From Sistotremastrum niveocremeum HHB9708 (taxonomy: Eukaryota; Basidiomycota; Agaricomycetes; Sistotremastrales; Sistotremastraceae): DNA of 64,000 nucleotides. Below, one piece after another: positions 17,249 through 63,596 of the stretch. The notes below the pieces were generated by a model. That model had not been told where the DNA came from, made no database searches, and was given only the letters and a program-made list of their open reading frames with translations. The DNA lies in NCBI GenBank assembly GCA_001630475.1, contig KV419420.1, positions 143,024-207,023 on the forward strand, given 5' to 3'. The translations under genes were made by a program, and so were the position numbers. Position 1 is the stretch's first letter, and each line of letters opens with the position of its first letter.

Positions 17249-17346
17249 CATCAGAAAAAATTAGAGCTCCTATTTCAACTCTGGAGTACTCTAGAGTACT
17301 CAAAAAGACTCCAGAGTTGAAATAGGAGCTCTAATTTTTCCTGATG
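17249..17346. mobile_element. 98-bp palindromic foldback element
   Basis: Two 39-bp arms with one mismatch surround a 20-bp loop, starting CATCAGAAAAAATTAG and ending CTAATTTTTCCTGATG. The flanking 2-bp direct repeat is GA (17247-17248 and 17347-17348). Removal rejoins KKLKR to GGPRGALLVKYQ in frame in the 14395 gene. It shares its terminal consensus with the three 88-bp elements in the copia region but has different inner arms. Confidence 0.8.
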
Positions 17347-18002
17347 GAGGGGGTCCCCGCGGAGCTCTCTTGGTGAAATATCAGGAGGTAGTCCGTACAC
17401 GAATGGCGCAGGGACTCGGCATCATACACAAGAAATCTATCCCCCTTGCAGCTCACGTCTGGGATCTCGAAGCCGAGATAATGCCCAATGATCCCGTTAT
17501 CCATAAGTTCACTGCGGGTCAGAGGTTCAAACTAGATTGGCGTAAGACCATCAAGGAGAGCAAGTTCAACCAGTCAGTCTGTGATCGCTTTTGCGAAAAC
17601 ATTCTACAGGAAATCACAACGGGAAATGTCGGGGCCATCTCTAAAAACCTTGCGCTCAAGAACCTTATTGCCGTCGTCGACGTCTTCAAGCGCAGGTACG
17701 ATCAATGGCGAACTGAGCATGCTCATTGGATCCGCACTATCAAGGAGCCTGAGCTCGACATCGACAACCTGGAGCATCTTCAGAAGATTTCCTTGACTCA
17801 TGACCTAGCAAGAGCAAAGCGGAAAGCAATTCTAACACGTAAGAACCAACGCAAAGTCAAGGTTCGTCTTCTTCCTCTATCATCTCGTCGTTTTCTCAAA
17901 TTCGCACAGCTCTGCGCGCATCGCAAACAAATCCTCGAGTCTTTGATCGAACAGAAAACTCCGGAGGAGAATTCATATCGGTGGCTTCTGAGTGTCGTAG
18001 AG

Positions 18003-18301
18003 TAAGGATAGCAACGAGTATATACTCGTGGACTCAGGTACCTGTGCACAGGTACCTGCAGTTTTTTTTCAGGCCGTGGACTCGTATCTGCCTCTGATTT
18101 TGGGCCAAAATGCTGGACTCGTACTCAGGTACCCGCGAGTCCCTCTGCCAAAAAACACAGGTACCTGCCCACGGGTACCTGTATTTTCAAAAAATTTCCC
18201 AGAGCGGGCTGTATCTGGACTCGTGTTTGCTTAGTAAGCAGGTACCTGTACTTGAGTACCCACGAGTACCTGTATTTTTGCGGTATTCGTTGCTATCCCT
18301 A
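18003..18301. mobile_element. hAT-like MITE, 299 bp, complete
   Basis: The target duplication TCGTAGAG is at 17995-18002 and 18302-18309. The ends are TAAGGATAGCAACGAGTAT and, reversed, TAGGGATAGCAACGAATAC. The interior is packed with CAGGTACCTG-type palindromes and GGACTCGT motifs. Removal rejoins LLSVVE to ELGNKGVSSDES in frame. An almost identical copy in the opposite orientation lies at 60099-60397. Confidence 0.9.
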
Positions 18302-18675
18302 TCGTAGAGGAATTGGGGAATAAAGGCGTGAGCTCGGATGAGAGTGACCGGGACGAGAAAACACATCAGTCTATCTACAGAGTCAAGACCTTTCGCTGGC
18401 GACACCCCGCTCTTACGGCGTACCTCGACGGAGTGGATGACGACCGACGCTGGACCAATGATGAACGTCAGCGTAAGCCTGGTGCTGGGTTCCGCGACCG
18501 TCGACGCACAGGGAATACCAGCTTGACACCTGCAGTCGGTGGAATGCATTCAGAAATCTACTCTCCAGATTACCTCCAGCATCTCCCACCCGCCGAAAGA
18601 GCGTACTTGGCCCCGAAGTTACCTCGTCCTATGCCGGAATTGCAACCTATTCTTGCGGCCAGACGGGAACTCTGA

Positions 18676-20468
18676 AATGGCCATAAACTGATATATATGT
18701 AAGTGCGATGACGCTGTTTTTCTTCGTAACCGACTAACAAGTTTCTTGCAGGTGAATCGTCGCCTAACGTACTCTGTTATCGTGAGTGAGATCCCTGCGT
18801 ATCACTCTGGATACCATTCTAATGACTTGTCACAGAGGATTCTGTTCCGTACAATATATTAGCCTTGTGAGTAATACTGCTTTTCTATTTGTATACGGCG
18901 CTAACCAACTCGTCGCAGCTGTAATCCAATATGTACAATCTATGCTTGCGTGATTTCTCTTCGCCTTACGATTTTCTTGTGTGACACGTGACATTTTGCC
19001 TCGGCGCAGGACCGAAGACGTGCCGGTCTGCCGACCATAGTGGGATCGTCAGAGGCTGGTCACGCTCCGGGGACGGGACCGTCGCAGGATGGATTTTCGG
19101 GCCTTGGAAACTTTGGGTTTCTCCCGAGTTTTCTTGGACCGTGGAATTTTGAGTAGTCGAGGCTTGGAAACTTGAACTTTCTGGCGGATTTGCGGTGGCG
19201 GGAAATCTTGCCGGAAATTTTGAGTGATCACTGATTTTCCAGGGCCGGTAGAGATGGTGGGAATTCTGAGTTTTCGTGAGATTTCGAGAGGGTGGAAATT
19301 TGGAGGATAGTTCGTGTTTCTGTGGCTGGAAAACTTGATGATGATTTTGAGTGTCTCGTGATTTTCCGGAGGCTGGAAATTTGGTGATGATCCCGGGTTT
19401 GTCGGGCTGGATCAGACGATGAATAGTTCGGCTTTCAGCCGAATTCCCAGGACCGGATGCCTTTGGCTTTCCGGGGCCGAGATACTTGAAGGATATATTG
19501 AGTATGTAAATCAGTTTTTCGGACCGGATCACCTCGGGTTTCAATTTTATTTGTCGGAGATGGAAAGTGTATCGATCATTTCAAATATCTAAATACAGTT
19601 TTCCGTCGATTTCCAGCCCCTTGAAAATGGCAGCCGCCCGCAGTGTCATCATCCCATGACTTCCTTCTCTCGCACCGACAAGCAAGTACTGACCTCATCT
19701 CACATGCTCTCTTCTAAACAGTCATTCAACTATCCTAATCCATCGCAGAGCATGTGTTCCTGTCATGGAAAATGTGGATCAGATCCTCGATCCTCGGTCT
19801 CGAAATCGGAAATCGGAAGACGTCAAAATCGGACGACGGAAATCGGAAGGACCCTACCCATTTCCGGAACCGAATTTCGCTTCTTCTGCCATCTACCAAT
19901 CTTAGCCCCCCGATTTCGATGAGACTTTTCGTGCCTGACGATCGTTTCATTTCCCATTTTATCTAACGATGCTCTTTTTGATTTTTCGCTGGATCAAATC
20001 GCAGGATATTTGGCCGTGGATATTTCTCAGTCCGGATAGTTACACGCTCTCAAACTTTGAGGGATGTTCCCGTATTAAATCACACGCAGTGCAAGGACTA
20101 CATGTCCCGTAAAACAGGCCGCTCTCTCCGGTTCCTGGGTTGTTCTGCTTCGAACTTCGACCGGAAGCCGTCGCGGTATCCAGGCACATTACTGGCAACT
20201 GTAAATCAAGCCTGAAAGTCTAGGCCTTGATATTTACTGAGGCAATAATCTGAATAATTGATCGCTACCTTTCGCTTACGGAGTCCGGACGGGACGGCGG
20301 GGAGATATATTTACTGAGCTACGATGAAAAAAGGTCCGCGTGTGGTTCCCAACATATTGATATTGGTAGTACAAGGGAACAAAATTGGAATATTGACTTG
20401 GACGGATGACTTGTGATTCGGAAAACAGGAACATTATATCATCACCGAGTGATAGCAACCACCACCTC
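18676..20468. other. Intergenic stretch with degenerate tandem repeat
   Basis: About 1.8 kb with no supported gene. It contains the degenerate tandem array listed separately. A second short stretch near 19800-19860 has AAATCGGAA repeated several times. Confidence 0.4.
19080..19420. repeat. Degenerate tandem repeat array
   Basis: The motif GG(C/G)TGGAAA(A/T)(T/C)TTG recurs every 35-45 bp, with a larger period near 81 bp. On the minus strand this spells loosely repeated KFPxS...TQNxHH segments, which creates a long but probably non-coding open frame (18966-19544). Confidence 0.55.
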
Positions 20469-22219
20469 CTATATCCCTCCCAATGCGTCTCTAGTAATCC
20501 CAGCAGCATCATACCCATACAACATCTCCTCCACCTCCGCCTCTACATCAAATACAAATCACAATATCAATAACATCCCATCAGTCTCATCAGTCACATC
20601 ACTATTACACACAAAACAGCAACTCACCGAATTTAAGAACCGGTAATCCTCTCCCGATACGATTCGATAATGTCTGAATCTCCGTCGCACGAGATTTCCT
20701 CAGTGATTCGAATAGTCTGAGACGGGTGTTAATCGTGTCACTTTGGTCCTTGCCGGCGTCGGATAAGGAGGTTGAGAGCGTAGAAGGGAGAAGAGTAGCG
20801 AGCGTTATCGCATCTTCAAATCCCTGCGCAGCACCCTGTCCAAGCACTATGATACAGGATCCCATTAACCCATATCCCCACTAATCCAATCCTCACAAGA
20901 AATGAACGTACTAGGAAACATAGCATGCGCCGCATCACCCACCAAACACGCCCGTCCCTTAATCCAAGTTGGAAGTTCCTCAAACAGCAACAAAGGCCAA
21001 AGCGTGACGTTATCCACAGGACAAAGACGTATAAGTTCTTTATACCGCGCCGAGAAATCTTTAAATGCTTCTAAGAAATCTTCAGGTGACGACACATGAC
21101 CTCCAAAACCTACCAACAAAAAGAAAAAACGTCAGCGATCCAACACCGCACGGAAGAAATAGTACCTTTCTCTTCCTCCAAACCACCAGCACCCGGAGTT
21201 CGAGGATGTAATCCCGCAACATTCAAAACCTCTCCCCCCCGACACGGATAAACAGTCAAATTTCTCCTTCCATCATCATCATTAATCAAACACAACGCCC
21301 TCTTACTCTCCCTCACCCACTCCAATCCCGGCTCATTCTCCGCGTTGACGAGTGAGAAAAAAATTGTAGTTCGGAAGGCTGCTAGGCCGGAGGGGTGGGG
21401 TGTGGTGTGGGGTGTTATAAATTTGCGGAGAGAGGACTATCATACCATTTGTCAATCAAATGAGTGAGGGAGGGGAGGAAAGGGGAACGTACGTTTATCC
21501 CATCAGCGACGATGACGATATCACCCGAGATGTACGATCCATCCCCCAATCCAATCGTACCACTTTCAGCGTCGAGCGAAAGAACGGCAGAGCCCAGATG
21601 CAATATACACGATTCTCCAATTCCGACGGAGGATGTGGCTCGGTCCTTTAGTTCGGTATGAAGATCGACTCGATGGACGAGGTAGAATTTCTATATCCAA
21701 ACGTATATTATAAAGGCGTTAGTCCCAGTTTATGAGCAGAAGATTAGCAGAGCGAAAACGTACCGCTCCGAATTTCTCGAAAAGGTCCGATCCACGACTC
21801 ACAAAACTCAAATCCCCATCCGCCTGATCCTTCCCAAAATACCTCGTCTACCCTCATCAACATCCCACACGAATAATCGGAGGAGAAGGAGACAAACCTG
21901 AGTATGTTCAACCGCCCTCATCCTCCCAAAATCACACCCCAACCCCTCAAGAATCCTCGTCGCATTCGGTCCACACGTAACAGCTGCACCCACCTCTCTC
22001 GAAAAAGATGATTTCTCATATATCTACCGACGTATGTTAGTACGTCATCGCGCAAAAATGTTGTTAGGAATGAGGGAATGGGGAGTGGGGAAGAGGGAGG
22101 GAGATGCGTACCTCGACGTGATGCCCTGCTCGACGGAGTGCGAGTGCCGTAGCGAGTCCTACGAGTCCTGCACCCACAATAATAACATTCAACGGAGTTC
22201 CAATGGGAGATGAATTCAT
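20469..22219 (-). CDS. FAD-dependent monooxygenase (salicylate hydroxylase-like), copy 1
   Basis: Class A flavoprotein monooxygenases use FAD and NAD(P)H to add one oxygen atom to aromatic acids or similar substrates. The start is ATG 22217-22219 (MNSSPIGTPLNVIIVGAGLV). The GxGxxG FAD-binding loop is VGAGLVGLATALALRRAGH. Next come VGAAVTCGPNATRILEGLG, the HRVDLH segment, ADGINV (the DG motif) and VGDAAHAMFPS (the GD motif that binds the FAD ribityl chain). LGQGAAQGFEDA is the usual isoalloxazine contact. After a last intron the protein ends LYGYDAAGITRDAL. About nine exons have short introns with GTACG-type donors. No signal peptide, so cytosolic. The substrate cannot be told from sequence. 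It is the first of three tandem paralogs and is not paired with a transporter, unlike the other two. Confidence 0.85.
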
Positions 22220-23183
22220 GTTGTCAAAAGATTTCGTCGCGTCAAGTCTGTTAGAGTTGTGTTCGTTAGAAATTCAGCAGATGAACGGGCTTTAATATAC
22301 TAGCACTTCAATTATACTTGTCTATTATATGTTCATTGACTCAGCGACATTAAAGAATTGCAGATCCCGCTCCCTATCGCGGTCGGGCTTACATGGGCTC
22401 TCTAAAACACATCTGCTATAATCAAGCACTCAAGCAAGCACTCAGGTTCTAGGGTGCGGGGTGAGAATGCTTGGAAGCCTCAGTATATGTTTCGATCCAA
22501 GCGCATCGTGGAGTAGGATTCCTGAGAATGAGGATGCGACCCAGGTGTTAGGAGGAGGAATGCGTCGAGGAAGACTCGGCGGAAAATGCCGGCATGTGTT
22601 TACTCTTTACGAACCCTAACCCTCAGCGCTTAGGCGGGATTATTTCATTGGTACATTGCAGACTTTCACTCAGACGTTCATCCTCGTCCTCATGAGCTTT
22701 CAGAATATTATTCCTGAATATTTACGCGACAGACAGAGATCATCCAAATCCGAGAACTGCTGCGTCTCCGCTTCTCCCCGAACTAGCCGAGCGTCTCTTC
22801 TATCCATCAATGACATCAAAACTCTCCTCCGAACGTTTCATCATTGACTTCGGCCGAAAAGGATCAGCCCACGGCCCGTTATCTAGAGTTGGCATTTGGC
22901 AGTCAATATTCAGCCCTACAGATTAGCTTCCGTGCCGACTGAGATGAGGTGCCAAGGCAGAATAGACTTGGCTGGGATATTATAGCGGCATTCGTTCGGG
23001 AAGAAGTTTAGTTTCATCCTTACGCTTAGATATCGATTGAAATATCCCGTCCCAGATCGCACGTCGATGACAGCGGCAGGAAGTGTTGACACGGACGAAG
23101 TTGTCAGCAGAATTTGAGAAATATTTGCATTGCACCGTGTTCAAGCGATTCTTCGTTCATATTATGAGTTGCATCACGCAGTA
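22220..23183. other. Intergenic stretch between monooxygenases 1 and 2
   Basis: About 960 bp with the promoter of the upstream minus-strand gene and the 3' flank of the next. No coding exon or clear repeat was recognised. Confidence 0.4.
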
Positions 23184-46475: not shown

Positions 46476-47611
46476 ATGCCGTCTGCGACTCCCGATGTTA
46501 CTGGTGATGGCAGTGCGTCCACTATCGTTGTGTTCATTACCTCGTCAATTCTTATGAGTCATGATTTTCAGCCACGATTTACGATCTTATCCCATCGCTG
46601 AAACGGCGGCATTCGACGCGACTTGCTGCTGCTTCTCAGCCTTCACAAGACGGAGCTAACAACGCGCAGGACGAGCAGGACGTCAATGCCTCTCAATCTT
46701 CCAGCCATCTTTCCTCTCCCCCTACCGAAGCCACCGAGCCTGCCACCGAGTCCAAGGAGACCGAAGTCGATATCACTCCATCCAAGAGATTCTCCTTCGC
46801 TGACGCGGACGTCCTTTTGCGCTCGAATGACGGACATGAATTTAGCGTCCATCGGTGCATTCTTATCGCGGCTTCCGAAAACTTCGAAACCATACTCCGG
46901 AACCCCCCAACCTCCTCCAAGCGCCGAAAGATTGGAAATAATACGACGTCTCTCCCTGTCATCTCTACTGACGAGACAGGAGAAGAGCTGGACATCCTCC
47001 TTACTTACATCTATCCACGATCTCGTCCAAACAATGTTCGATTCCGTCACCTTAGCTTCGACATTCTCCTCCTTGACCGATGGAATATCCTTACCATACG
47101 CGACGACCTCGGTCGACAGCTCTGTTCTGATGTTTTCATCCAGGAAAATCCCGTTGCTGTGTATAATCTTGCCAAAAAGATGGGATTCGTCGACGCTCAG
47201 CATGCCGCTCTAAAGCACCTCTATGGCATTTCATTCGAAGGAAACCGGCAGTATTTCCTGGACGATGGCATTGAGTTGACAGCCAAAGATTTGCAACAAA
47301 TTATGATGTGGAAAAAGGAGTATCTCCGCAGTGTCATGGCTGTTGTTGATGGATACATTGTCCCTCCTATCAATCACAGAAACAGTTGTACGAAGTGCGT
47401 CTCGGCGAAGCAGTGGTGTTGGTGGAACACCTTCAAAAAGAAACTCCATAACTGGAATATCTTCAACCGTGATACGATTGATAAGGTGGTTTTTCTATCG
47501 CTGGCGGCAACCGAGTGCCAAGCACCATACGGTGACACTTACAAAGCTATCAAACTTTTGCATGACTCTCTTGAGAAGGAGATTGACAAATTGCCGGTAT
47601 CGTTTGAATAA
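46476..47611 (+). CDS. BTB/POZ domain protein with C-terminal CWW motif, gene 1
   Basis: A short first exon from ATG 46476 (MPSATPDVTGDG) is joined by an intron to TIYDLIPSLKRRHSTRLAAA, the same opening as gene 2. A Ser/Pro/Glu-rich linker follows. The BTB core has FADADVLLRSNDGHEFSVHR, ILIAASENFETILRNPP, a basic SSKRRKIG stretch, LPVISTDETGEELDILLTYI and WNILTIRDDLGRQL. Then NLAKKMGFVDAQHAALKHLY, SFEGNRQYFLDD, DLQQIMMWKKEYL and CTKCVSAKQWCWWNTFKK. BTB domains dimerise and recruit partners such as Cul3. SSKRRK could be a nuclear localisation signal. The C-terminal CxxC...WCWW block is shared by all six paralogs here. Role unknown. Confidence 0.8.
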
Positions 47612-48106
47612 GGTCAGGTTTATCCGTCAAACTTTGAGCGAATTTCTGACGACGTCTCTAGACTAGGGTCAGCTCTATTCTAACGCATGAAGATGCGAAT
47701 ATTATTGGATCGTAGAGAACGAAACACGAGAGCGCTCATGGGCTGAGACTACGCACTGAATGTAATTGAATGTATCGCATACGCCGTTGTCACATCCTTA
47801 AAATTCACTGATTCCAAGCCGCTTACGTCGACGTTTGAACGGCTCCGGAGGATAAAGTCCTCACTCTTCCAGAGCATGACAGAGACAGTTTTGACAGGAT
47901 GGGACACATTCCACCGAGAGATCTTATCGAAGACTGTAGGATTGTATACAGTTGCAGTAGACGAGTCGGAGTCTAAAAGTAGACGACGAGAAGTGTGACA
48001 GACGCTGTGACAGACGCTGTGACAGACGCGTCAGGCTCAAGCGCCACCCTGCCTTCCCCCCGTTGCTCTTATTCTTATTCGTTTCTTATTTCTTGGTATA
48101 TATTCA
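47612..48106. other. Promoter region of BTB gene 2
   Basis: About 500 bp. It contains a 12-bp tandem triplicate (TGTGACAGACGC) close to the start of gene 2. No gene. Confidence 0.45.
47994..48030 (+). repeat. Three tandem TGTGACAGACGC units
   Basis: Direct repeats of a 12-bp unit, about 80-115 bp before the BTB gene 2 start. The position suggests a repeated regulatory site; the function is inferred. Confidence 0.7.
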
Positions 48107-49393
48107 ATGGCGGATGAGACCTCGAATAATGCTTCAGACAGTGTGTCGCTTCACGTCATCATCCGAAGCTCATCCTAATTTTCTCTAGCTACGATATACG
48201 ACCCACTGCCGAATCTGAAGAGACGGCATTCGACGCGCCTTTCTGGTGCTTCTCAGCCATCGCAGGAGAAAGTCGTTGACCCAGAGACCCCCCACCCATC
48301 GATCGGGAACGATTATCCTCCTTCCCCTCCTATTTCGACAATCGACTCGAACGGGAAGATGACACCCGGTCCCACCAAGGAAGCTGTCGCGCCGGAGAAG
48401 AGCTCAAACAAAAATCAGGAATCTTCTGAGCCAGGCCCTCCTGATGCATCCAACACAACCCACGCGATTGATCTCATCACCTCTTCGGTCTTTGCTTACG
48501 ACGACGCCGACATCATTCTTCGTTCCAATGACAACGTCGAGTTCAGGGTTCACAAGCAGATTCTGAACCTGGCGTCTCAAGAGTTCAGAGACCTAGTGCA
48601 GAACCCTCGTAAAACCTCGAAGCGCAGGAAAATTCTTCCCGATGCCGAGATCTCCGAGTCTCTCCCTGTCAGAGCAGTCGACGAGACCGAAGATGACCTT
48701 GAAACTCTCCTTCGATTCGTCTATCCCATCGGCGGGAATTTTACCACTTCTCTTTCGTCCCTCACCGAAGACATATGCCTTCTTGGAAAATGGGGCCTTG
48801 TCGCTATCCAGAACGATTTGGCGGAGCGTCTCGCTGAACCCAACCTCATATCGAACGATCCGGTCAAAGCTTATGACCATGCGAAGTACTTCGGATATGA
48901 AAACGCGCGTCACGCTGCACTGAAAGCACTCTACGCTCTTCCATTCGAGGGAGATGAAAAGTATTTCATGTCCGAGGACCTCGATCTGAATGCGAGAGAT
49001 CTACAGCAGATACTGTCTTGGAAGAAACGATACATGGATGAAGTCCTCACCATCGTTGAAGACTATAAGGTTCCCAAACCGACAGCCGGGACTTCTTGCA
49101 AGAATTGTATCTCCGCCTCTCGTTGGTGTTGGTGGGGGAGCTTCAAGAATCGGGCCCGGAACACGTCTAACCTCCTAGGCCCTAACGAGCTGGAGAAGAA
49201 GATTTTCGCTTCGATGGATTCCAAGGCATGTTCAGCTTCGCATTCCGAGGTGTTCGAAACTGTGTCTACCTTATGTGCCGATCTTCGCAAGAAGATTGAT
49301 GCGTTGCCCGTCGAACACGCCTGTACGTCAATTCTTTCGCAGTTTGAGTTCGGTGTTATTGAGCTTCGCAATGTAGCTTCAAATTCAACTTGA
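48107..49393 (+). CDS. BTB/POZ domain protein with C-terminal CWW motif, gene 2
   Basis: Exon 1 starts at ATG 48107 (MADETSNNASD) and splices to TIYDPLPNLKRRHSTRLSGA, closely matching gene 1. After a Pro/Ser-rich linker the core reads FAYDDADIILRSNDNVEFRV, QILNLASQEFRDLVQNP, SKRRKILP, VRAVDETEDDLETLLRFVYP, WGLVAIQNDLAERL, ALKALYALPFEGDEKYFM, DLQQILSWKKRYMDEVL and CKNCISASRWCWWGSFKN. The region ends EVFETVSTLCADLRKKIDA and LPVEHA. The last ~25 residues before the stop at 49393 do not match the paralogs, so a terminal intron with a GTACGT donor after the LPVEH codons is possible. Confidence 0.8.
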
Positions 49394-50597
49394 TAATCCG
49401 GAGCTCGCTATTGGTTTCGAACTCACCGGAGTCTACGCATCTGGTCAGGTCGATGACCAGACGGTCGCGTACGAAAGAATAATGTTGATCCATCTCAAGA
49501 CACTTTGTAGGGTTGACAGGGTCCCGAGAAAAACATCATTCCTTGTGACCACCTCGTAATCACGCTGATCGTGCTGGTCGGAAAATTGAAACAGTCCATC
49601 GATTATTTTGCAGCCCCTTTGGGCTTCATGAATGAGGCCCTGATAAAGATCGAGATCAATATTAATAATATTGTTGACATTTCGCCCCCGTTGCGAAGCT
49701 CAGAGCTTCTGGGATGCATCTTTTCAGCTGCTGTTGGTAGCCCTCTCAGGTACACCTGTTCTCAGACTGTAATCTGGAATACATTTGCCGAACGATATCG
49801 ATTATTTATGTCAATGATTGAACAAGAAACTATTTGTTGCCGATTAGAGGTTCGACCTGTTGGGACATTCGTCACTGTAGATACAATAGAGATCAAGAAC
49901 ACTCCTCATGTATTGCAGAATACCGCATTCCGTCACTGCGCCTTTCTCAACTAATCTACACTTCTTGTTAATTCAGCTATATGAGTGGGGACGCGCAAAG
50001 CCGCTAACGAATTTGTGACCATTACATAAGCTTTTCTCCCCTCGCGTCGTGGCAAATCCGCGCGACCTCGATTTATACACTTTTGACCCCTCCACACTAA
50101 ATGTTAAATTTATCGAAAATTGGAGAGACTCCTTGAGATCTCTTGTATGACAATGGTGGAAAAATAAATGTCTATAAACCTCGGGGATGTGCCATTCTAT
50201 AGGATCACAGCGCGGGAACTGTATTAGATAAGCGGCTTTTCGCCCTCAAAATGGCTGCACGAGAACAGGGCAGGCTCCACGAATTCCGCTGCGGTCAGCT
50301 CTCAGAACGGACAAATGATGGGATTGAAACAATCTGTTCAGAATGCTTTTCCATTATCGGCCATAATTCACGCGTTACGTGCAAGAATTCGATGATCGAG
50401 GACAAATTTTACAAATCGGTTCTGAACATCCTTTTTGTAGACCGGAAAAACCCCGATTTAGTTCAAAATTTGGGCCAATATCGTGGGCGTTCGACCTGCG
50501 CAATGTCCGTGCCACAGATTTTGCACTTTCCCGCCAAACGACGCGTCACGTCGGAGTTGAAATTTTGGCGCGTCGTTGCTGGTCCCCAATATGAGAA
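49394..50597. other. Intergenic stretch
   Basis: About 1.2 kb between convergent BTB genes 2 and 3. Two open frames (49571-49954 and 50251-50601, both plus) have no recognised domain, and I do not call them. Base composition is more AT-rich than the flanking genes, which may indicate old mobile-element remains. Confidence 0.35.
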
Positions 50598-51770
50598 TTA
50601 AGATAGACCAACGATACCTTTGTATTCCCCTGGTAGAGATGCGATCTTCTCCCGCATATCCCCAAGAATAGACTCGACACCGTTGTAAACCTCAAGAGGA
50701 GATTGCTTACAGATTCTCGCTGCAATGTTGATGGTACACTTGAGAACATCGTCGGTCAAAGGTTTGGAGCATCCTCGAACGAGATCTTGGAAATGATCCC
50801 ACCAGCACCACTTTCCGACAGCACAGAACTCGCAAGAAGTTCCTGTGGGCCCGTTCTGATATCTATAGGACTTTATCAAGGAGTGGACATCCTCGAAATG
50901 TCGCTTCTTCCAGGCGATGATCTGTTGAAGATCTCCGGCTGTCAAAGAAAGACTTTTGTCCATAAAATACTTCTTGTCTCCTTCGAACGGAAGCTCGTAC
51001 AAAGCTCGGAGAGCTACCCGACGAACGCTGGGCAAGTCGAGCTTTCTCGCAATATCGTATGCGTACACAGGGTCTTCCGCGATCAATGATGGGTCTGTGA
51101 GGCGCTCGGTGAGCTCGAAGCGGGCAGCTTGAAGATCCCATCGATCGACCAGATAAATCTGAGTGCACAACGCGCGAAGACTGTTGATCACCGGACGTCT
51201 GACAGGATACAGATACGAGAGTAAATCCGACGTCGATTTAGAGGATTCGTCGATGGAGATGATGGGAATGGAAGTGTATGACTCGGTTTCACTGCCACTT
51301 CCGTGTTCAATCCTGCGCCGTTTCGAACCGGAAGGAGGATTCTGCAGAAGTTCCTTGAACTTTTCGGATGCGAGAGTCAGAATGAGTCTGTGGACTCTGA
51401 AACTAACATCATCCTTCGACCGTAAGATAACATCTGCATCCGCGTATTGAAAGGGTCTGCGGCTCTGGGTTTCGTCCCCATCTCGAGGAACTGGATTCGG
51501 ATCTTCGGTTACGCGCGAAAACTTTAAAGGGTTAACTCGGCGGGGGGCCGTGAAAGATACTACGGTGACCCCAGAAGACTTGGGTCCTAATTGTCTCCTT
51601 TTCTTTTGGATATTAGGATCCGTCACGGAATAGAGACGTGTCGATGGCACTGGAGCCTGCGCTGTACGTTTGGCTGCCCCTGCAGAGAAATGGATGCATA
51701 CTGCGCCATCATGAACGATTCGACTTCGAAACGTACCATTAACGTCATTATCCAAAGTTCGGGTGGTCAT
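50598..51770 (-). CDS. BTB/POZ domain protein with C-terminal CWW motif, gene 3
   Basis: A single open frame of 390 codons from 51770 (MTTRTLDNDVNGTFRSR). A basic region (NIQKKRRQLGPKS) precedes the BTB core: YADADVILRSKDDVSFRVHR, LILTLASEKFKELLQNPP, GSKRRRIEHG, IPIISIDESSKSTSDLLSYL, QIYLVDRWDLQAARFELTER, AYDIARKLDLPSVRRVALRA and LYELPFEGDKKYFMDKSLSL. Then DLQQIIAWKKRHFEDVHSL and CEFCAVGKWCWWDHFQD. It is closest to gene 5, sharing FEGDxKYFMDxxLSLTA, RLALRALYELPFEG-type runs and YLVDxWDLQxAR. It is divergent from gene 4 with 210 bp between starts. Confidence 0.85.
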   Translation of the reverse strand: MTTRTLDNDVNGTFRSRIVHDGAVCIHFSAGAAKRTAQAPVPSTRLYSVTDPNIQKKRRQLGPKSSGVTVVSFTAPRRVNPLKFSRVTEDPNPVPRDGDETQSRRPFQYADADVILRSKDDVSFRVHRLILTLASEKFKELLQNPPSGSKRRRIEHGSGSETESYTSIPIISIDESSKSTSDLLSYLYPVRRPVINSLRALCTQIYLVDRWDLQAARFELTERLTDPSLIAEDPVYAYDIARKLDLPSVRRVALRALYELPFEGDKKYFMDKSLSLTAGDLQQIIAWKKRHFEDVHSLIKSYRYQNGPTGTSCEFCAVGKWCWWDHFQDLVRGCSKPLTDDVLKCTINIAARICKQSPLEVYNGVESILGDMREKIASLPGEYKGIVGLS

Positions 51771-51821
51771 TCCAGTGTAGGAGACAGATGGCCTGGCGAT
51801 GGTGAATGGTTCGAAAGTGAG

Positions 51822-51907
51822 ATCACGTCAGCATCGTGACGTTCCGAATGACCGACGTTACGTCGCGTACGGTCACAGTCACGTTGCGTCATCCTATTGC
51901 GTCATCC
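51822..51907. promoter_or_regulatory. Dense TGACG/CGTCA cluster in the divergent BTB 3/4 promoter
   Basis: Within 86 bp there are CACGTCA (51824-51830), CGTGACGTTCC (51835-51845), ACGTTACGTCGCG (about 51855-51867), GGTCACAGTCACG (51871-51883) and two copies of GCGTCATCC (51886-51894, 51899-51907). TGACG/CGTCA is the half site of CREB/ATF-type bZIP proteins. Such density between two divergent starts suggests a shared regulatory region, by inference. Confidence 0.5.
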
Positions 51908-51980
51908 TCCTGGTCCCCACAACCTCATTCCAGCTGGACGCGAAGCCTGTTATTCCTCTTCAACGATTTGGCTCAGAGAT

Positions 51981-53073
51981 ATGACGACGAGCTCACTAGA
52001 CACTTCAGACGGTATGTCTTGCTTATCTTGAAGAGATCCTCTTACATGATGACGCGACAGAGGTGGCTAAGTCGAACAAAAGGAAGCTCCCAGCCGGCCC
52101 TGAAAATATGAACAGAGCACTAGAAAAGTCTGTTTCCAGCACTGATGCGAAGCAGAGTGTGGATAACCCACCTTCAAATCCGGGCTCTCCTGTCGCAGAG
52201 CCAGAGCATAAAGAAATCAACCTCACGGTGTCCGAAAATTTTGCCTACGACGATGCCAATCTCATCCTTCGCTCGAACGATGATGTCGATTTCAAAGTTC
52301 ACAGGAATATCTTATCATTGGCATCGGCACCCATGAAGGATCTCATCGAAAATCCCCCCGCATTGTCCAAGCGTCGTCGGACCGATGCAGCCCAATCTCC
52401 TCTCCCTATCGTTTCCGTGGATGAGACGGAAGAAGATCTCGACTACCTTCTGCGTTACGTCTACCCTCTCTCCCGTCTTTCCAATGATTCTGTGGAGGAT
52501 CTGGAGTTGGGGCTGAGATTGGTTGTCAGATGGGGACTAGAGGCTGCTCGAGAAGAGTTGGGCAGCCAACTCAACAACACCTCGAGGATAGAGGAGGATC
52601 CAGCCAAAGTATACGCTCTTGCCAAGGAATTCGGGCTTGAAGATACGCGTAACTCGGCTCTCAAACGTCTATATGAAATTTCGTTCGAAGGAGATCAAGA
52701 CTATTTCATGGACGAAACTCTGGGCCTGACCTCCCGCGATCTCCAGGAGGTAATCTCATGGAAACGAAAATACCTCACCGCTGTTGTCTCGATCTTCGAG
52801 AAGTACAAGCCTCCGGTTATAGGTTTTTCGGCTACGGGAAATAAACCTCCATGCAAGGGATGTTCCGCTGCTCGTCAATGGTGCTGGTGGAGCCATTTCA
52901 AATCCAAAGTCCGGCGATTTTTGGACCTCATTAATGAGGACGACCTTGAGGAATTGGTCCTCAAATCGATGGAAATCAAAGAATGTCGAGTGTCTCATTC
53001 CGAGATATTCAACATTCTTCATATGTTGCGCACCGAATTTCGAGAGAAGGTGACTGCCGTACCCGTAACTTAG
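51981..53073 (+). CDS. BTB/POZ domain protein with C-terminal CWW motif, gene 4
   Basis: Exon 1 starts at ATG 51981 (MTTSSLDTSD). A 49-bp intron (52012-52060) joins it to EVAKSNKRKLPAGPENMNRA. The core reads FAYDDANLILRSNDDVDFKV, RNILSLASAPMKDLIENPP, SKRRRTDA, LPIVSVDETEEDLDYLLRYV, WGLEAAREELGSQL, LAKEFGLEDTRNSALKRLYE, SFEGDQDYFMDETLGLTSRD, LQEVISWKRKYLTAVVS and CKGCSAARQWCWWSHFKSK. The C terminus is VTAVPVT with TAG at 53071-53073. The basic KSNKRK and SKRRR stretches could be nuclear localisation signals. The 10-residue first exon followed by a short intron is shared with genes 1, 2 and 6 and probably 5. Confidence 0.85.
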
Positions 53074-53365
53074 GTAAGTGAATGCACACTTTCCCGTCCC
53101 TTTTGTTTCATTTCTCTCACGCTGATGTGATAGGCAAGATATTCTAAACGTCGAAAGCGCATTCAAAAGGTTGACTGCCAACTTTCAACTTTCGCGCCGT
53201 ATCCCGATTTGTCTATGAAGAATGAAAGGAAAAACAAAACAAGTTGTATGAGTTCAATTGTAATTGTCACCACCATAGTGATTGTGATCGTTGGCAAATC
53301 GCAAAATTTGCTTGCATTAAGCTCCCACGGTTCTCGGTCTTCCCCACCGACGATAGAAAGCAAGA

Positions 53366-54621
53366 TTATCGACATTCTTTCAACTCTTGCCGAGCTCCAA
53401 GTTTGGTGGATGTACCACTTAGTCTAGTCTGTGTAGTCCGTCGAATTTCATACGAGGGTGCAGATAAAACAATCTCACCTTGATATTCCATAGGCAAGGA
53501 CGCGATTCTGTCTCGTAGATCCGACAAAATCAAAGTGATTGCATCATAGCGCTCCGGCAACGATTCTTCGCAATCATCCGCAGCGTTGAGGATTAAGGAG
53601 TGTAGAATTTTGTCGGTGATGGGTTGTACTGTTTGTCGAGCAGAACTTTTGAAGTCGCTCCACCAACACCATTTTCCAGCTTTGCTAGCCCTACAATCCT
53701 TGCAGAACGCCCTTGGTGTGGCTGGGCACTTGTATTTGTCAATCAAGGATTTAACATCCTCAAAATGTCGCTTTTTCCAACCGATGATCTGTTGAAGGTC
53801 TGTCGCAGTCAACGACAGGGTTTCATCCATGAAATATTTGTTATCCCCTTCGAACGGAAGTTCGTACAGAGCCCGGAGAGCCAGTCGACGAACGTCAGGC
53901 AAGTTTAGCCGTTTGCCCATGTCGTATGCATAGACGGGATCTTCTGCAATTAATGAGGAATTGCAAAGGCGCTCGACGAGGTCGGTTCGAGCAGTTTGTA
54001 GATCCCAGCAATCGACCAAATAAATCTGGGAGCATAGCCCGCGAAGATCGTAGTTCACTGGACGCCTGATGGCGTATATATAGCATAGTAGATCTTCTAC
54101 GGAGCTCGAATACTCGTTAATGGAGATGATGGGAAGGGAAGACTGGGTGCCGGTATTTCCAGAATCGATTTTGCGCCGTTTAGAAGTTGCGGGAGGATCC
54201 TGTATGAGGTCCTTCAATTTTCCAGAGGATAGCCCTAGAAGGAGCTTGTGGACTTTAAAATCCACATTACCTTCCGAGCGCAAGATAATATCTGCGTCTG
54301 CGTAACCAAAGAGTCCGCTAATGTTTGCTTTGTCCTGCGGTGCTGGCGTGATGGAAGTCCTTATGCTCGAATTGGAAGATGGGAGATCCCCAACTGATAT
54401 TTCAACGTTGGATGAGGCAGATGGGACATCATTGGTAGGTGAGCCTCTGGAGCCCGCTGAATTTTGACTACCCGCGGCCGGAAGTGAGGCACTATTCGGC
54501 TGATATGCGATTATCGTGACTGTTTTCGAGCGTTACGGATGGGCGAATATATGTGATTAAGAATTATGAAACCACATCCATCAGCGTCCTTGTATCTCTT
54601 AGTTGATGCACGAGTGCCCAT
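53366..54621 (-). CDS. BTB/POZ domain protein with C-terminal CWW motif, gene 5
   Basis: The likely start is ATG 54619-54621 (MGTRASTKRYKDADGC). A ~50-bp intron with a weak GTTTCA donor ends at AACAG before VTIIAYQPNSASLPAAGS. The core reads YADADIILRSEGNVDFKVHK, LLLGLSSGKLKDLIQDPP, SKRRKIDSG, LPIISINEYSSSVEDLLCYI, QIYLVDCWDLQTARTDLVER, LALRALYELPFEGDNKYFMD, DLQQIIGWKKRHFEDVKSL and CKDCRASKAGKWCWWSDFKS. A GTGAGA right after LPMEYQ could be a final intron that would move the stop to 53424; otherwise the frame ends at 53366. It is closest to gene 3 and divergent from gene 6. Confidence 0.75.
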
Positions 54622-54955
54622 TTGGTGGATAAAAACGCAGATGGCTTTGAGGTTGCTTTGTGCGTGAGCGCTGAGCAGTCGGACTTCAAAAATGTCGGAA
54701 CTGTCACTAGCTCTGTCACCCTAGGGAACGCTTCGTAAATCACAAGAGGTCGAATTACCGGGCTGTCGGAATAATACCTCTATTGAAGAATGGACATTCG
54801 AGTTGTCGTCTTTGCATAGACCTCGTGAAAATCAACTGACGGTCCTGTCGGCGTTCAAAACCAGTCGGAGCTTGAATGTAAGGCCTAAAAGCGGTGACGT
54901 AACGCGTTACTCGCTTCGTCTCGTCCACATCGTCAGCAACATCCTATTCGCAGCA
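54622..54955. other. Divergent promoter of BTB genes 5 and 6
   Basis: This 334-bp region carries GGTGACGTAACGCGTTAC at about 54892-54910, 46-64 bp before the gene 6 start. It contains a TGACGTAA CRE variant like those before the other BTB genes. Confidence 0.45.
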
Positions 54956-56146
54956 ATGCCCCGAACATCAATCCAATCTGAAAACGGTGTGTAACGCACA
55001 GCTCTCCCTGCAGCTTGTCTGACTGTGATAAAAGTCAACCCAACTCCCGTCGAGTCCAAGAAAAGGAGATTCTCGGCCCGCATCGCAGCTTCATCGACGT
55101 ACAACGACCTCAGTCTTATGACCTCGAACATCTCCAACACTATCAGCAGCACAGATTCCGTCATGGATCTAGACATTCGCGCTACTTCTCCTCTTTCGGA
55201 ATTCTCAGAATCGGCCTCAAGCATGTCCGAATCCGAGACCTCGACGCTCAACAGTAATAAATCCGCCGATATGACTTTTTTGCCAGGCTTCGACTACGAC
55301 GACGCAGACCTCGTTCTTCGCTCTTCCGATGGCACCGAATTCCGCGTACACAAGACTGTACTCAGCTCGGCCTCCGATTCGCTGAAGTACCTCTCTCAAG
55401 ACCCTCCTCATTCTTCCAAACGACGACGCGTCGCTTTTGCAGATAGACCCGAGAAGGATCATTCTTCGTTGCCCATCGTCTCCGTCGATCATTCGTCCGT
55501 AGAGCTTGATCGCCTCCTTCGTTATATCTACCCCATTGGCCGACCGAAAATCACATCACTCGCCGATATTCAATGCGATATCAACCTTCTCACGCGTTGG
55601 GATCTCGAAGGCGTCCGCACCGATCTAGGAAAAGAGCTCGATAACTCCTCCCTCATCTCCCAAGACCCCGCAGCCGCCTACGCTCTCGCAACACAATATA
55701 AATTCCTCCCCGCCCGCGACACGACTCTTCGGATCCTCTATAAACTCCCATTCGAAGGTTCTCCTCAGTACTTCCAAGAGTCTCAGATCACGTGCGGAGA
55801 TCTCCAACGGCTCATCGGATGGAAGAAACGATATTTGGCCGAACTCGAATCTCTCATGCGCACCTTCAAGATACCGCGTCTCTCCGAAGAATACGAATGC
55901 GATGATTGTTATTTGGCGAATTCGAAATGGTGCTGGTGGCCTATTGTCAGAGAGTGGATCGATGAGCAGACGGGGATATTCGATCTGGATAAGATGTGGG
56001 AGGTTATGGCTCAGGCGTGTCAGGAGTGCGAGGCGGACTGGGTGGAGAGCTTTAAGGGGATTCAGACGTTGAGGACGAACTTGATGAAAAAGATTGAAGC
56101 GTTGCCGGTCATATTTGAAGGTGAAGTTTCTTGTTTCCCCGTATGA
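54956..56146 (+). CDS. BTB/POZ domain protein with C-terminal CWW motif, gene 6
   Basis: Exon 1 starts at ATG 54956 (MPRTSIQSEN). An intron with a GTGTGT donor joins it to VNPTPVESKKRRFSARIAAS. A Ser-rich stretch precedes the core: FDYDDADLVLRSSDGTEFRV, KTVLSSASDSLKYLSQDPP, SSKRRRVAFA, LPIVSVDHSSVELDRLLRYI, WDLEGVRTDLGKEL, LRILYKLPFEGSPQYFQE, DLQRLIGWKKRYLAELESL and CDDCYLANSKWCWWPIVREW. The stop used is at 56144-56146. A GTGAAG after VIFE could start a terminal intron leading to another stop about 50 bp on. It is the most divergent of the six in the region following CWW. Confidence 0.8.
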
Positions 56147-57887: not shown

Positions 57888-58542
57888 ATGGCACACACAC
57901 TCCCTCCTCTCCCATACGCCTACAATGCTCTCGAGCCTTACATCTCGAGCGAAATCATGACTCTCCATCATACCAAGCATCACCAAACCTACGTGAACGC
58001 TCTCAACGCTGCCGAGTCTTCGTTCCAATCAGCTACCTCTCCCAAACAACGCATCGCGCTCATCAGCGCGCTCAAGTTCAACGGAGGTGGTCACATCAAC
58101 CACTCGCTCTTCTGGGAGAACTTGGCTCCTGCTTCGGAGAAGGGTGGAGCTGGAGGTGTTATCAACGATGGGCCTTTGAAGAAGGCTATCGTCGAGGAGT
58201 GGGGATCGGTGGACGACTTCAAGAAGGCGTTCAACGCTGCTACGCTCGGTATCCAGGGTAGTGGTTGGGGATGGCTCGGCGCGGATAAGAAGGGAAAACT
58301 CGTCATTACGACGACTCCTAATCAGGATCCTCTCCTCGATTACACTCCGTTGATAGGTGTGGATATCTGGGAACACGCGTTCTACTTGCAGTACAAGAAC
58401 GTCAAGCCCGATGTGAGTCTCTTTTACTATTATCTTTTCTCGGATCGTGCTGATGATGAGACAGTACCTCGCTGCTATCTGGCACGTCATCAACTTCCAG
58501 GAGGCCGAGAAGCGATACACCGCCGCCATCTCTAAGCTTTAA
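57888..58542 (+). CDS. Superoxide dismutase [Mn], cytosolic type
   Basis: It converts superoxide to H2O2 and O2 using manganese. The start is ATG 57888: [20 protein letters not shown]. Metal ligands are visible: His in [13 protein letters not shown], His in [11 protein letters not shown], and Asp and His in [29 protein letters not shown] is the usual active-site loop. An intron at 58412-58463 splits the gene before [20 protein letters not shown], ending AISKL with TAA at 58540-58542. The total is about 200 aa, and the first residues match the mature enzyme (HTLPxLPYxYNALEP) without a mitochondrial presequence. It is therefore probably one of the cytosolic Mn-SODs known from fungi, unless an upstream exon is missed. 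Confidence 0.92.
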
Positions 58543-59031
58543 GCTTTGAAGAGTCGTGGTATCGTGAACATTGAGAAGACGAAAGAAGAAAAACTTTTAT
58601 CGTGCATGTATCAGTAGTTTCATCTCTGTGCCGACAAACCCAAGCCAAGTCAAATCGAATAAAATCACACTTGTACATTGTCATCTATCACATCGGCTCG
58701 ACTAGAGCTATAAGCAGTCTTTGTCGTCAAGCTCTCGGAAATGAAGTGCGCCGATCTGATTTACGGTTGACGATATCGCACTCAAAAATCAGCCTGAGGG
58801 AATCAAGTATCGGATCTCTCAGCCGACGGGCGCTTAAAGCGTAGCAGAGCGTTACGGTCTGGGTATATGCTGTATTTTTTTTTACTCCGCAATCATACTA
58901 TGTTTTCGGGCGTCGGCACAATATTTTCTGGACTAGATTGACTATTGTTATCTGAGACTGGTCCCGTGATCGCGCCAAGATCTCGTTCTCTGGGAGAATG
59001 AGCAGACCCTCCCCCGCTACGATAATGCATG
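58543..59031. other. Intergenic stretch, 3' flank of SOD
   Basis: No gene. Contains a T-rich run near 58873-58884. Confidence 0.4.
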
Positions 59032-59165
59032 CTGAACTCAAAAAGGGATTGAGCGGGGTCGGACTGTGGCTCAGATCTGCGCGAGCCATGGACCTGGTTT
59101 CTCTCGGAAGAGAACAGGCGTCGCGAGGCACGAACGACTCTTTGACCGAGTCTCGTTAGGGAGGC

Positions 59166-59253
59166 CTTCAGAAAAAAATAGACCAGCTAATTTGACTCCT
59201 GAGTCCTCCTGAGCGCTCAGGAGCTGAATTAGCTGGTCTATTTTTTTCTGAAG
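59166..59253. mobile_element. 88-bp palindromic foldback element (copy in LTR region)
   Basis: 38-bp arms with two mismatches and a 12-bp loop, starting CTTCAGAAAAAAATAGACC and ending in its inverse. The 2-bp flanking repeat is GC at 59164-59165 and 59254-59255. Same family as 62321-62408 and 63509-63596. Confidence 0.8.
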
Positions 59254-59282
59254 GCAACGCCCAGGAAAGCAAAGCCGAAAAC

Positions 59283-59564
59283 TAAGGCTTCCAACGAATA
59301 TAGCCCGTTTAAGGATATCCGCAAGTATACTTGCCAAGGGTACCTGCCTAATACACCGTAGGCAGGTACAAGATTAGTGGCTGGACATTTAGGCAGGTAC
59401 CTGCCTACTATTTTTACTAGTAAATAGGGGTTATTTAGGCAAGTATAGGCAAGTAAGTACCTGTACTTGCCAAGTACAAGTATGGGATTTTGGCTGAAAA
59501 AAACAGGCAGGTACCTGCATGCAGGTACCCAGGTAAGGCAAGTATATATTCGTTGGAGGCCTTA
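59283..59564. mobile_element. hAT-like MITE, 282 bp
   Basis: The target duplication CCGAAAAC is at 59275-59282 and 59565-59572. The ends are TAAGGCTTCCAACGAATATA and, reversed, TAAGGCCTCCAACGAATATA. The interior is rich in GGTACCTGC and GGCAAGTA motifs. Related in style to the 16741 and 18003 elements. Confidence 0.9.
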
Positions 59565-60098
59565 CCGAAAACTGCATAAGCTATCAAGTGCGTTTTACAA
59601 GGCAATCTTCAGTTGCTGGTTTCAACTATATTAAGGAATGTCTAAATACCTTTTACAAGGCAACTAGAGACTATTAGCAAGGAGCGACGATACTAGGATA
59701 AACGAATGACTTACTCTTCAGTTGCTGGTTTCAACTGAAGAGCGTAGGCACGAGGGCGCGGAGCATTAACTACTTAAGTCCGTTAAGTCCGAACACTATA
59801 TACGAATTGTAATCTAAGCTTGAATTCCAACACTCCCCCTCAAGCTGGATGCAGTCCAAGCCCGAGAGAGAATTTCTCTATCTTTGGAGAGTCCAATGCC
59901 TTGGTAAGAATATCGGCAATTTGGCTGTCGGTCTGAATATATTTGAGGATGACTTGATTACGAGCGACCATCTCGCGAATGAAATGATAAGGAAGGGCGA
60001 TGTGTTTGGTTCGGGGTGAGAATTTGTGTTCCTTGGCCATCGCAATTGCACTTTGGTTGTCACCAAAGAGAGTTGTGGGATATTGGAGAGGGGAAAGG

Positions 60099-60397
60099 AT
60101 AGGGATAGCAACGAATACCACAAAAATACAGGTACTCGTGGGTACTCAAGTACAGGTACCTGCTTACTAAGCAAACACGAGTCCAGATACAGCCCGCTCT
60201 GGGAAATTTTTTGAAAATACAGGTACCCGTAGGCAGGTACCTGTGTTTTTTGGCAGAGGGACTCGCGGGTACCTGAGTACGAGTCCAGCATTTTGGCCCA
60301 AAATCAGAGGCAGATACGAGTCCACGGCCTGAAAAAAACCACAGGTACCTGCGCACAGGTACCTGAGTCCACGAGTATATACTCGTTGCTATCCTTA
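60099..60397. mobile_element. hAT-like MITE, 299 bp, without target duplication
   Basis: Nearly identical, in opposite orientation, to 18003-18301, with both ends intact (TAGGGATAGCAACG left, TAAGGATAGCAACG reversed right). The flanking 8-mers differ (GGAAAGGA and GTTCTTCA). Copia sequence on the two sides is not contiguous: ...SQSEIDEMKN on one side and LSPLQYPTTLFGDNQ on the other. Confidence 0.85.
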
Positions 60398-61526
60398 GTT
60401 CTTCATTTCGTCAATCTCGGATTGGGATGTGGGACACTGACTGCGAGTATATTTGGCGCCTGGAACCATGGGAGAATGGGTAGGTCGACAATCTGAAAGG
60501 TTGAATCTCTTTGCCATGGCGTCAATATAACTTTCCTGTGACAGAGTTAAGATCCGATTCTCTCGATCACGTTCGACCAGAAATCCCAGTAGCCAATGGA
60601 TATCACCGAGGAATTTGATGGGATACACGGCCTCGATCCGACGATGAATATCCAACAGTGTAGGTGTGTCATTACCTGTACTGTGGACATCATCGACATG
60701 AATTCCTAGGAATGTTGAGATTCCATTCGGCTCGTGTCGGTAGAAGATGGCGGGATCAACCTGGCTACGGGTAAATCCCAAATCTTCTAGAAGTTTGAGG
60801 ACGGTCAGGTACCACTCTCGTGCGGCCTGCTTTAGACCGTAGAGCGGATGAAGCAGTAGGCAGACGTGATCGGGATTGTCCGGATCTTCGAAGCCTTCGA
60901 CTTGTTCCATGTAGACAGTCTCTCGGAGGGTTCCGTTGAGGAAAGCTTGCTCGAAGTCGGCTTGGTAGATGTCCCAGTCGTTACGAGTAGCGAGGGAAAG
61001 GAGAATTTTGTTGGAGGCGGATCTGGCGACGGGGGCAGTGGTTTCAAAGTAGTCAACCTTGTATTTTTGAGTGAATCCACGAGCTGTGACTCTTGCCTTG
61101 TATTTTACCGGCTTTCCGAGTGCATCGAGCTTGATTTTGTAGACCCAACGGTTGCTGACCACGTTGACACCAGGAGGACGAGGTACGAGTTCGTACACTC
61201 CACGTGCTTTAAGACCTTCCACTTCGGCTTCCATCGCGGACCTCCATTCCGGCCACTCCTCGGTCTTCATCGCTTCCCGCATGCTCTCCGGTTCTCCACC
61301 AGCGGTGGTAGCAGCGAAGGCGAATACTCCCCCTGATTTGAAGTCTTCTTCGAGTTCGGTGACGTAGGCGAGAGAAGCTTGTGGAATATCAGAGGATGGT
61401 GAAGCTGATGATTTGCGAGGGTTTAGACCTGTGGATGATCCGATCCCAGATTGGATGTCCCTCAACTTCAATGATGGTGTTTTCGTACGATGACCGCGAC
61501 CTAGAGGGGCAGAAGACTCTTCTGAT

Positions 61527-62018
61527 CAAGGGGCATGCGTAATAAAAATTTATGATATGACGTTGAAAAATTTTATTAAGGCCTCTTTGACCCTGTACCC
61601 TGAGATTTAAACTCCGAAAATCAATAAATATATTAATTTAAGGTCTCATACTATTTTCCGGGGTCTCCAATAGGCTTTGGTAGCTGTAGACAGTCTCCGG
61701 AAGCGTCAGTGAGATTGTTTCTGAGCACGTCGGGAGTTTCTCACAAGTTGTGACACTGCGGTGACCGTGACTCCGGAGCGTGACACAAGTGTGACGAAGT
61801 GACCTCCAAGAAGGCAACTAGCCGATGCAAGTACCACTTATGATTTGAAGCTCTCTCTGGCAAGCGTCACATCCTTCCAGACATGTTTGATGATCAAATA
61901 CACGCTCAGATGACTTGTAGATTAATATAAAAGGTATGTCGAAAATTTTATTTAAGGCCCTCGGAAACCCTGACCCTGACCACCCTGTGTCTCGGCATTT
62001 GCCGGTGCATGCCCCTTG
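61527..62018. mobile_element. hAT-like MITE, 492 bp
   Basis: The target duplication CTTCTGAT is at 61519-61526 and 62019-62026. Terminal repeats CAAGGGGCATGC are perfectly inverted. Inner repeats around ...AAAATTTTATT(T)AAGGCC and many GTGAC motifs follow. Removal rejoins the copia linker in frame (PLDESE to ESSAPLGRG). Confidence 0.9.
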
Positions 62019-62320
62019 CTTCTGATTCGTCCAATGGTGTTGTCTCGTTTTCGAATTCATTCATGAGATCGGCGAGGGGTTTAAGGGAGCTGGGAGATGA
62101 TGGAGGAGTGGTGCCACGAAGCGTTGGCGATGGGCGAGGGGATAATTTTGGTGATGATGAGGGAGTATTTCCGGGTTTGGATGATGTATCTTCCGGAGTG
62201 GGTTGATTGATATCGCTAGACTCCCCCTCAATCACGATAACTGGAGGAGATACATCGTTCTTGTCGAAGATGATGTTTCTTTCAACAGAGACTCTCCCGG
62301 TTTCTGGCCAATAAATCCGA

Positions 62321-62408
62321 CTTCAGAAAAAAATAGACCAGCTAATTCAGCTCCTGAGCGCTCAGGAGTACTCAGGAGCTGAATTAGCTGGTCTATTTTT
62401 TTCTGAAG
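62321..62408. mobile_element. 88-bp palindromic foldback element (copy in copia linker)
   Basis: Perfect 38-bp arms around a 12-bp loop; ends CTTCAG...CTGAAG. The 2-bp flanking repeat is GA at 62319-62320 and 62409-62410. Element plus duplication is 90 bp. Its removal gives SESKGHRIYWPETG, a normal copia sequence. Confidence 0.85.
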
Positions 62409-62492
62409 GATGCCCTTTGCTTTCTGAGTCAAAGCCAAGCCATTGACAGTGTTTTGATTTGGGATCGAGCTTGGAGTTAGCTTCGATATGAA

Positions 62493-62953
62493 TAGTGTTT
62501 GCAAGTCAGGTCACTTAACCGCCAAATAACTGCGACTTAGCCGTAACTTAACCATTTGTGACCTAACCATGGTTAATGGTCATGGCTCAGAGCTGGTGGT
62601 CAAGTCACAGTCATGGACCTCCCGGAAATCCTTGACCGCTTGCCTTGACCAACATGGGTAGATCCTTGTCTACAGCCTTCCCCAGGCCTTCCGATGTGTT
62701 CTGCTTGCCATATACATCATATATGAGGTCCAATAACCTAGTTTAAGTAGTAAAAAGTGGAGATTTATGACTTTTTTGAGGTCATAACCGCATTAACCGG
62801 TCAAAGTCAAGTCATGGTCACCCAATTTTGGCTTAACCGTGACCGTTGGCGGTTATAGGTTACAGCAAAACCCATTAACCATAACCGCGGTTTGGTTACG
62901 GTTAGGGCCTCCGAGGTGCCTATAACCTAACTTAACCTGACTTTCAAACACTA
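62493..62953. mobile_element. hAT-like MITE, 461 bp
   Basis: The target duplication GATATGAA is at 62485-62492 and 62954-62961. The ends are TAGTGTTTGCAAGTCAGG and, reversed, TAGTGTTTGAAAGTCAGG. The interior is crowded with TAACCG/CTTAACC motifs on both strands. Removal rejoins copia KVWVHI to EANSKLDPKS in frame. Confidence 0.9.
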
Positions 62954-63508
62954 GATATGAACCCAAACCTTACACCCGAACTTGTGAAGCTGCGACAGAT
63001 CTGGCTTCTTCCCGTGGACCATTTCGTATGGAGTTTTCCCGGGTAGAGCGCGAGTTGAAGTGCGATTCTTCAACCAGACAGCATGACGAATAGCTTCTCC
63101 CCATAGCGACAGAGGTAGACCGGCTTCGATGCGCATGGCTCGAGCCTTCTCCTTGAGAGTTCGGTTGAGACGTTCGGAGATGCCGTTCTGGGAAGGGGAA
63201 TCATGGACATTCAGGCGACGAATAGTTCCTTTGGACTTCAGATGAGCAGAGAATTCCTCGCTGGTATACTCTCCACCTCGATCGCTCTGGAATTCCTTAA
63301 TGACGCTGTTCCGCTGCTTATCGACCCAGGCTTCGTATTCCTTATAGGTTTTGAAGACTTCATCCTTGCTCTTAAGGAGGACCAGATAGGTTTCGCGTGA
63401 ATAGTCGTCGGTGAAGGTGACAAAGTATTTCATCCCTTTTCTGGTGGCCTTCGGTGCCGGTCCAGATACGTCACTGTGAACTCGGTCACCGTAATGCTCC
63501 ATACGCTT

Positions 63509-63596
63509 CTTCAGAAAAAAATAGACCAGCTAATTCAGCTCCTGAGTACTCCTGAGTACTCAGGAGCTGAATTAGCTGGTCTATTTTTTTCTGAAG
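63509..63596. mobile_element. 88-bp palindromic foldback element (copy before integrase)
   Basis: Perfect 38-bp arms with a 12-bp loop; ends CTTCAG...CTGAAG. The 2-bp flanking repeat is TT at 63507-63508 and 63597-63598. Removal gives HPKIRESKRMEHYGD, the expected copia junction; with it the frame meets a TAG inside the arm. Confidence 0.85.

Follow-up and report, generated by a model that had tools for sequence, protein, structure and literature searches.

Four short palindromic elements in a 64,000-nucleotide stretch of the Sistotremastrum niveocremeum HHB9708 genome (contig KV419420.1, positions 143,024 to 207,023; hereafter the window) are a real and well-bounded mobile family. Their ends and their 2-bp target site duplications (TSDs) suggest that they are probably non-autonomous MITEs of the PlavakaB type, which would be moved in trans by a transposase encoded outside the window. 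The elements are listed below, each with the left and right copies of its duplication, to which no strand is assigned.

Element 1: 17249..17346, no strand assigned; 98-bp palindrome with ends CATCAG..CTGATG and one more central 10-bp unit than the others; GA at 17247..17248 and 17347..17348.
Element 2: 59166..59253, plus strand; 88-bp palindrome with ends CTTCAG..CTGAAG; GC at 59164..59165 and 59254..59255.
Element 3: 62321..62408, minus strand; 88-bp palindrome lodged within the SH3-like domain of a polymerase of the copia type; GA at 62319..62320 and 62409..62410.
Element 4: 63509..63596, plus strand; 88-bp palindrome in a copia-type polymerase, with the GAG-pre-integrase domain on one side and the integrase core on the other; TT at 63507..63508 and 63597..63598.

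Shape, boundaries and kinship of the four elements

Re-reading of the sites returned the same coordinates, lengths (98, 88, 88 and 88 bp) and flanking dinucleotides as the initial annotation, and its description of the elements as near-perfect palindromes was borne out by half-to-half complementarities of 44/49, 38/44, 41/44 and 43/44 in elements 1 to 4, respectively. The four elements head an inverted-repeat listing of the window that comprises 10 pairs, and their predicted single-stranded DNA folds have z-scores of -13.5, -12.1, -15.7 and -19.3 relative to shuffled sequences, with none of 200 shuffles folding as well in any of the four cases. Rfam returned no match at the gathering threshold. 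The three shorter copies had also been described as sharing a 12-bp loop; their length of 88 bp stands, while the size of the loop varies with the point at which the arms are cut, the minimum-energy structures giving a loop of 10 nt for element 2 (12 nt in its centroid structure), 12 nt for element 3 and 4 nt for element 4.

Folds of this stability would be in keeping with elements moving as single-stranded or RNA hairpins and acquiring their 2-bp repeat from end joining, a mode of movement that has been put forward for mitochondrial elements of the double-hairpin type or GC clusters. We consider this very unlikely here, as the ends shared with the diverged element 1 and the constant 2-bp scar (4/4) fit a DDE transposase better, and the neighbourhood contains nuclear-type genes, among them an intron-containing Mn-SOD. 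The best PDB match of the latter is 1kkc, which we take to be a fungal enzyme; this match is in keeping with a fungal host, as are the gene content and the intron-bearing genes of the window.

The 2-bp target duplications claimed by the annotation were recovered in all four elements (GA, GC, GA and TT). When each side was shifted by -3 to +3, giving 49 registers, the 48 alternative boundaries each yielded agreement between flanks in at most one element of four; from base composition, the probability of four agreements is approximately 1.5e-5. A 3-bp duplication was found in none of the elements. Searching the whole window for the end motif with up to three mismatches produced eight matches that are exactly the eight element ends (seven free of mismatches and one with a single mismatch), against an average of 0.81 and a maximum of 4 in shuffled windows. 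No fifth copy was detected in the window by nhmmer, the best other match having an E-value of 3.1. The family thus displays the attributes by which MITEs are recognized, namely small size (88-98 bp), lack of coding capacity, terminal inverted repeats, a TSD and several copies (four in the window).

The copies are related to one another well beyond their termini. Five of the six ends of elements 2 to 4 carry exactly the 38 bp with which element 4 begins, the exception being the left end of element 2, which agrees with element 4 over 27 bp, and the centre of element 3, once read on the minus strand, aligns with those of elements 2 and 4. The centres are built of units of about 10 bp, each starting with CTC, and it is one extra such unit that accounts for the 98 bp of element 1. 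Element 1 is a diverged relative of element 4 whose likeness extends past the ends: the outer 17 bp share 15 (left) and 14 (right) positions with element 4, and the agreement continues over 8 of 13 letters of the inner left arm, a level that 0.9% of 20,000 shuffles attain, and over 15 of 19 letters of the centre.

We note that a terminal pentamer and a matching 2-bp flank would by themselves be weak proof of a family, since such pairs often arise by chance at long distance. A scan of the window for CWTCA-type pairs (C[AT]TCA..TGA[AT]G with identical flanks of 2-3 bp, the ends matching at 10 or more of 14 positions) returned 19 pairs, of which the four elements ranked first (13-14/14) and the remaining 15 scored 10-11/14. 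In 20 block shuffles the mean was 5.85 pairs and the maximum 10, fewer than these 15; repeating the scan with the flanks taken 1 to 20 bases farther outward nonetheless returned 10 to 28 pairs, and the 15 are therefore the window's own background. The case for the family accordingly lies in the near-perfect palindromes, the common 17-bp ends and the four TSDs taken together.

Insertion into coding sequence

A retrotransposon whose remains occupy the end of the window harbours elements 3 and 4 in its coding sequence.

60398..64000, minus strand: remains of a Ty1/copia-type polymerase with GAG-pre-integrase, rve, SH3-like and RVT_2 domains; host of elements 3 and 4.

Pfam matches to this polymerase include RVT_2 (2.4e-55) and rve (3.6e-9). 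When the pieces flanking element 3 were searched apart, they matched SH3_retrovirus positions 25-47 and 49-70, so that one codon spans the junction; around element 4, the GAG-pre-integrase domain runs to its final position (67/67) before the insertion and rve begins at position 9 after it. Among the five matches of this separate-piece search only that to rve (37.3 bits) lies above the Pfam cut-off, GAG-pre-integrase scoring 27.9 against 28.4 and three SH3-like pieces 25.1, 23.6 and 16.5 against 27, as may be expected of fragments of cut domains. The argument for insertion is thus drawn from the order and phase of the pieces; these abut at both junctions, and the insertions are therefore real. 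Restoration of a reading frame upon removal of the element had been claimed in three cases, and holds in this way for elements 3 and 4. For element 1 it is plausible only, the open frame across the joined site belonging to a gene of no recognized family (no match above the Pfam cut-off). Element 2 lies 29 bp ahead of an element with an 8-bp TSD, and no gene was identified around it.

Small palindromic elements in coding sequence, three of which (elements 2 to 4) end in AG, call to mind introners, the new introns derived from transposons. Such an origin is extremely improbable for the present family: the 5' boundary has no nearby GT in any of the four elements, the first GT lying at least 37 bases into the element; element 1 lacks a terminal AG; and two copies sit in a retrotransposon gene that is also cut by another insertion.

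The window further contains five short elements whose inverted TA..TA ends match at 14-16 of 16 positions and which are each flanked by a perfect 8-bp target duplication; judging from the length of their TSDs, we regard them as hAT-like.

9121-9629: duplication TTCAAAAC; interrupts the tnp2-type transposase gene described below.
16741-17090: duplication CTCAAGAT.
18003-18301: duplication TCGTAGAG.
59283-59564: duplication CCGAAAAC.
62493-62953: duplication GATATGAA; interrupts the copia-type polymerase.

A sixth, weaker candidate at 6272-6839 has the repeat GAGAAACC and 12 of 16 end matches, and contains a run of N. The ends of the block at 60094-60398 resemble those of the 8-bp-TSD elements, and an 8-bp duplication was looked for there and not found. 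Many palindromic motifs resembling GCAGGTACCTGC occur at 59320-60390 and 16740-18300, in or beside these elements.

Probable assignment to the PlavakaB lineage

The annotation knew of no described superfamily with this combination of features, a view that is not upheld by the literature. The parts of Kojima (2025) covered here distinguish two Plavaka lineages, PlavakaA with a 2-bp TSD and TGT..ACA termini and PlavakaB with TSDs of 2 or 3 bp and CATCA..TGATG termini (PMC12730594). Given that a described lineage already has the combination, novelty at the superfamily level is unsupported, and a 2-bp scar other than TA does not alone make a new superfamily. According to the same parts of that source, TSDs in Plavaka's clade measure 2 to 5 bp and Plavaka families have been reconstructed from various Agaricomycotina fungi (PMC12730594); for CMC elements as a whole, the portion covered of another study gives 2-4 bp (PMC4482050).

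All four elements have a TSD within the PlavakaB range (2 bp), and the printed PlavakaB termini are matched exactly by element 1 and at four of five letters by elements 2 to 4 (CTTCA..TGAAG). The probable assignment to PlavakaB is drawn from these ends and 2-bp scars, the comparison being with the printed five-letter terminus. The elements differ from PlavakaB as described in that covered material in carrying no transposase, in measuring 88-98 bp, in being almost wholly palindromic and in the CTTCA..TGAAG termini of three copies; moreover, most CMCT elements have CA..TG ends in common (PMC12730594, parts covered), whereas elements 2 to 4 have CT..AG ends. Other CMC groups with 2-bp TSDs may offer an alternative home. 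A precedent for assigning non-coding elements from their ends and TSDs exists in Marasmius oreades, a species in which Plavaka and KDZ account for about half of all DNA elements; unlike the four elements described here, the non-autonomous DNA elements of this fungus are not mentioned as palindromes in the parts of that paper covered (PMC8290104). Likewise, no palindromic Plavaka MITE was found described in the literature searched (titles and the beginnings of abstracts). The new features are that the elements are so small and so symmetrical and that their cores are built of 10-bp units.

Stowaway MITEs of the Tc1/mariner superfamily are also short, hairpin-forming and flanked by a 2-bp TSD; their target is TA, in contrast to the GA, GC, GA and TT found here. 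Terminal inverted repeats with a short TSD, as well as the presence of a tnp2-type transposase gene in the window, could point to another known superfamily, whether Tc1/mariner, ESTA/PHISTA (TA), ISL2EU (AT), EnSpm/CACTA or PlavakaA. We nevertheless find this unlikely. As the annotation had maintained, the duplication is not TA: neither TA, general in the mariner group, nor AT, the defining feature of ISL2EU (PHIS), both as given in the source material covered, is seen in any of the four elements, and 2-bp duplications other than TA set the family apart from Tc1/mariner. Nor does any element have the TGT..ACA termini of PlavakaA or the CAC..GTG termini with 3-bp TSD reported for fungal EnSpm/CACTA families (PMC12730594, parts covered).

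Under the preferred PlavakaB assignment, a DDE transposase supplied from another part of the genome would recognize the CWTCAGAAAAAAWTAGA ends and excise the element; this enzyme would most likely belong to the PlavakaB lineage, within the CMCT (CACTA/EnSpm-like) clade. Reinsertion would take place by cut-and-paste at a 2-bp staggered cut with no fixed target sequence, the 2-bp duplication being the presumed product of gap filling. The elements would then be little more than a pair of terminal inverted repeats that face each other across a core of repeats of about 10 bp, and the palindromes may have originated when one end was duplicated in inverted orientation and the number of central repeats subsequently changed. 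Should the assignment hold, the family would represent a natural substrate of minimal size for a transposase lineage that has received little study and would help map the end sequence that this lineage requires, and the palindromic shape with its 10-bp core units offers a testable model for the origin of tiny elements.

Search for a partner transposase

In agreement with the annotation, the end-motif scan and nhmmer did not reveal any longer element with the same ends in the window. The one recognized transposase gene in the window, at 7240-9120, matches Transposase_21 (tnp2) at 5e-15 and probably continues to about 11564; no convincing termini of an element of its own were found around it. 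This gene (7240-11564) is in pieces and is flanked by two WD40-like genes (weak WD40 matches) that show inverted similarity to each other. PF18759, the Pfam model named Plavaka, matched none of the proteins chosen from the window for Pfam scanning, the tnp2-type transposase included; these scans covered 10 proteins at E <= 0.001, 8 at E <= 1 (two of them shared with the first 10), 10 at E <= 0.1 and 4 pieces at E <= 1, the window having 47 ORFs of at least 150 amino acids.

That no partner was found in the window, that Pfam does not call its transposase Plavaka and that elements 2 to 4 are one letter off the PlavakaB terminus printed in the material covered would also suit MITEs of an undescribed transposase lineage that has CWTCAG ends and is relaxed in its choice of 2-bp target. 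This reading appears improbable, as element 1 fits PlavakaB in both ends and TSD and the combination is, in that same material, already covered by PlavakaB. There is a small but appreciable chance that the family belongs either to an undescribed transposase lineage or to a third, distinct lineage of Plavaka marked by CTTCAG ends. The smallest mobile unit would in either case be a self-complementary hairpin of less than 90 bp whose core is made of 10-bp repeats. For such a transposase, end sequences of at most about 17-38 bp would suffice, and a spacing of only some 90 bp between the ends would be tolerated.

Beyond the window, a pattern search of viral contigs for relatives of the tnp2-type transposase picked up 21 stretches, none of which was confirmed by tblastn. 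The end motif occurred in at least 120 stretches of these contigs, with one match each and no opposing end among the 80 matches listed, and we read these as chance AT-rich matches. A 22-base end had no match in viral contigs and two in genome contigs; both of the latter are single arms, with no opposing arm within the 251 and 301 bases read. Elsewhere in the window, a cluster at 46565-56143 comprises four or more ORFs with BTB/POZ domains as well as repeated segments.
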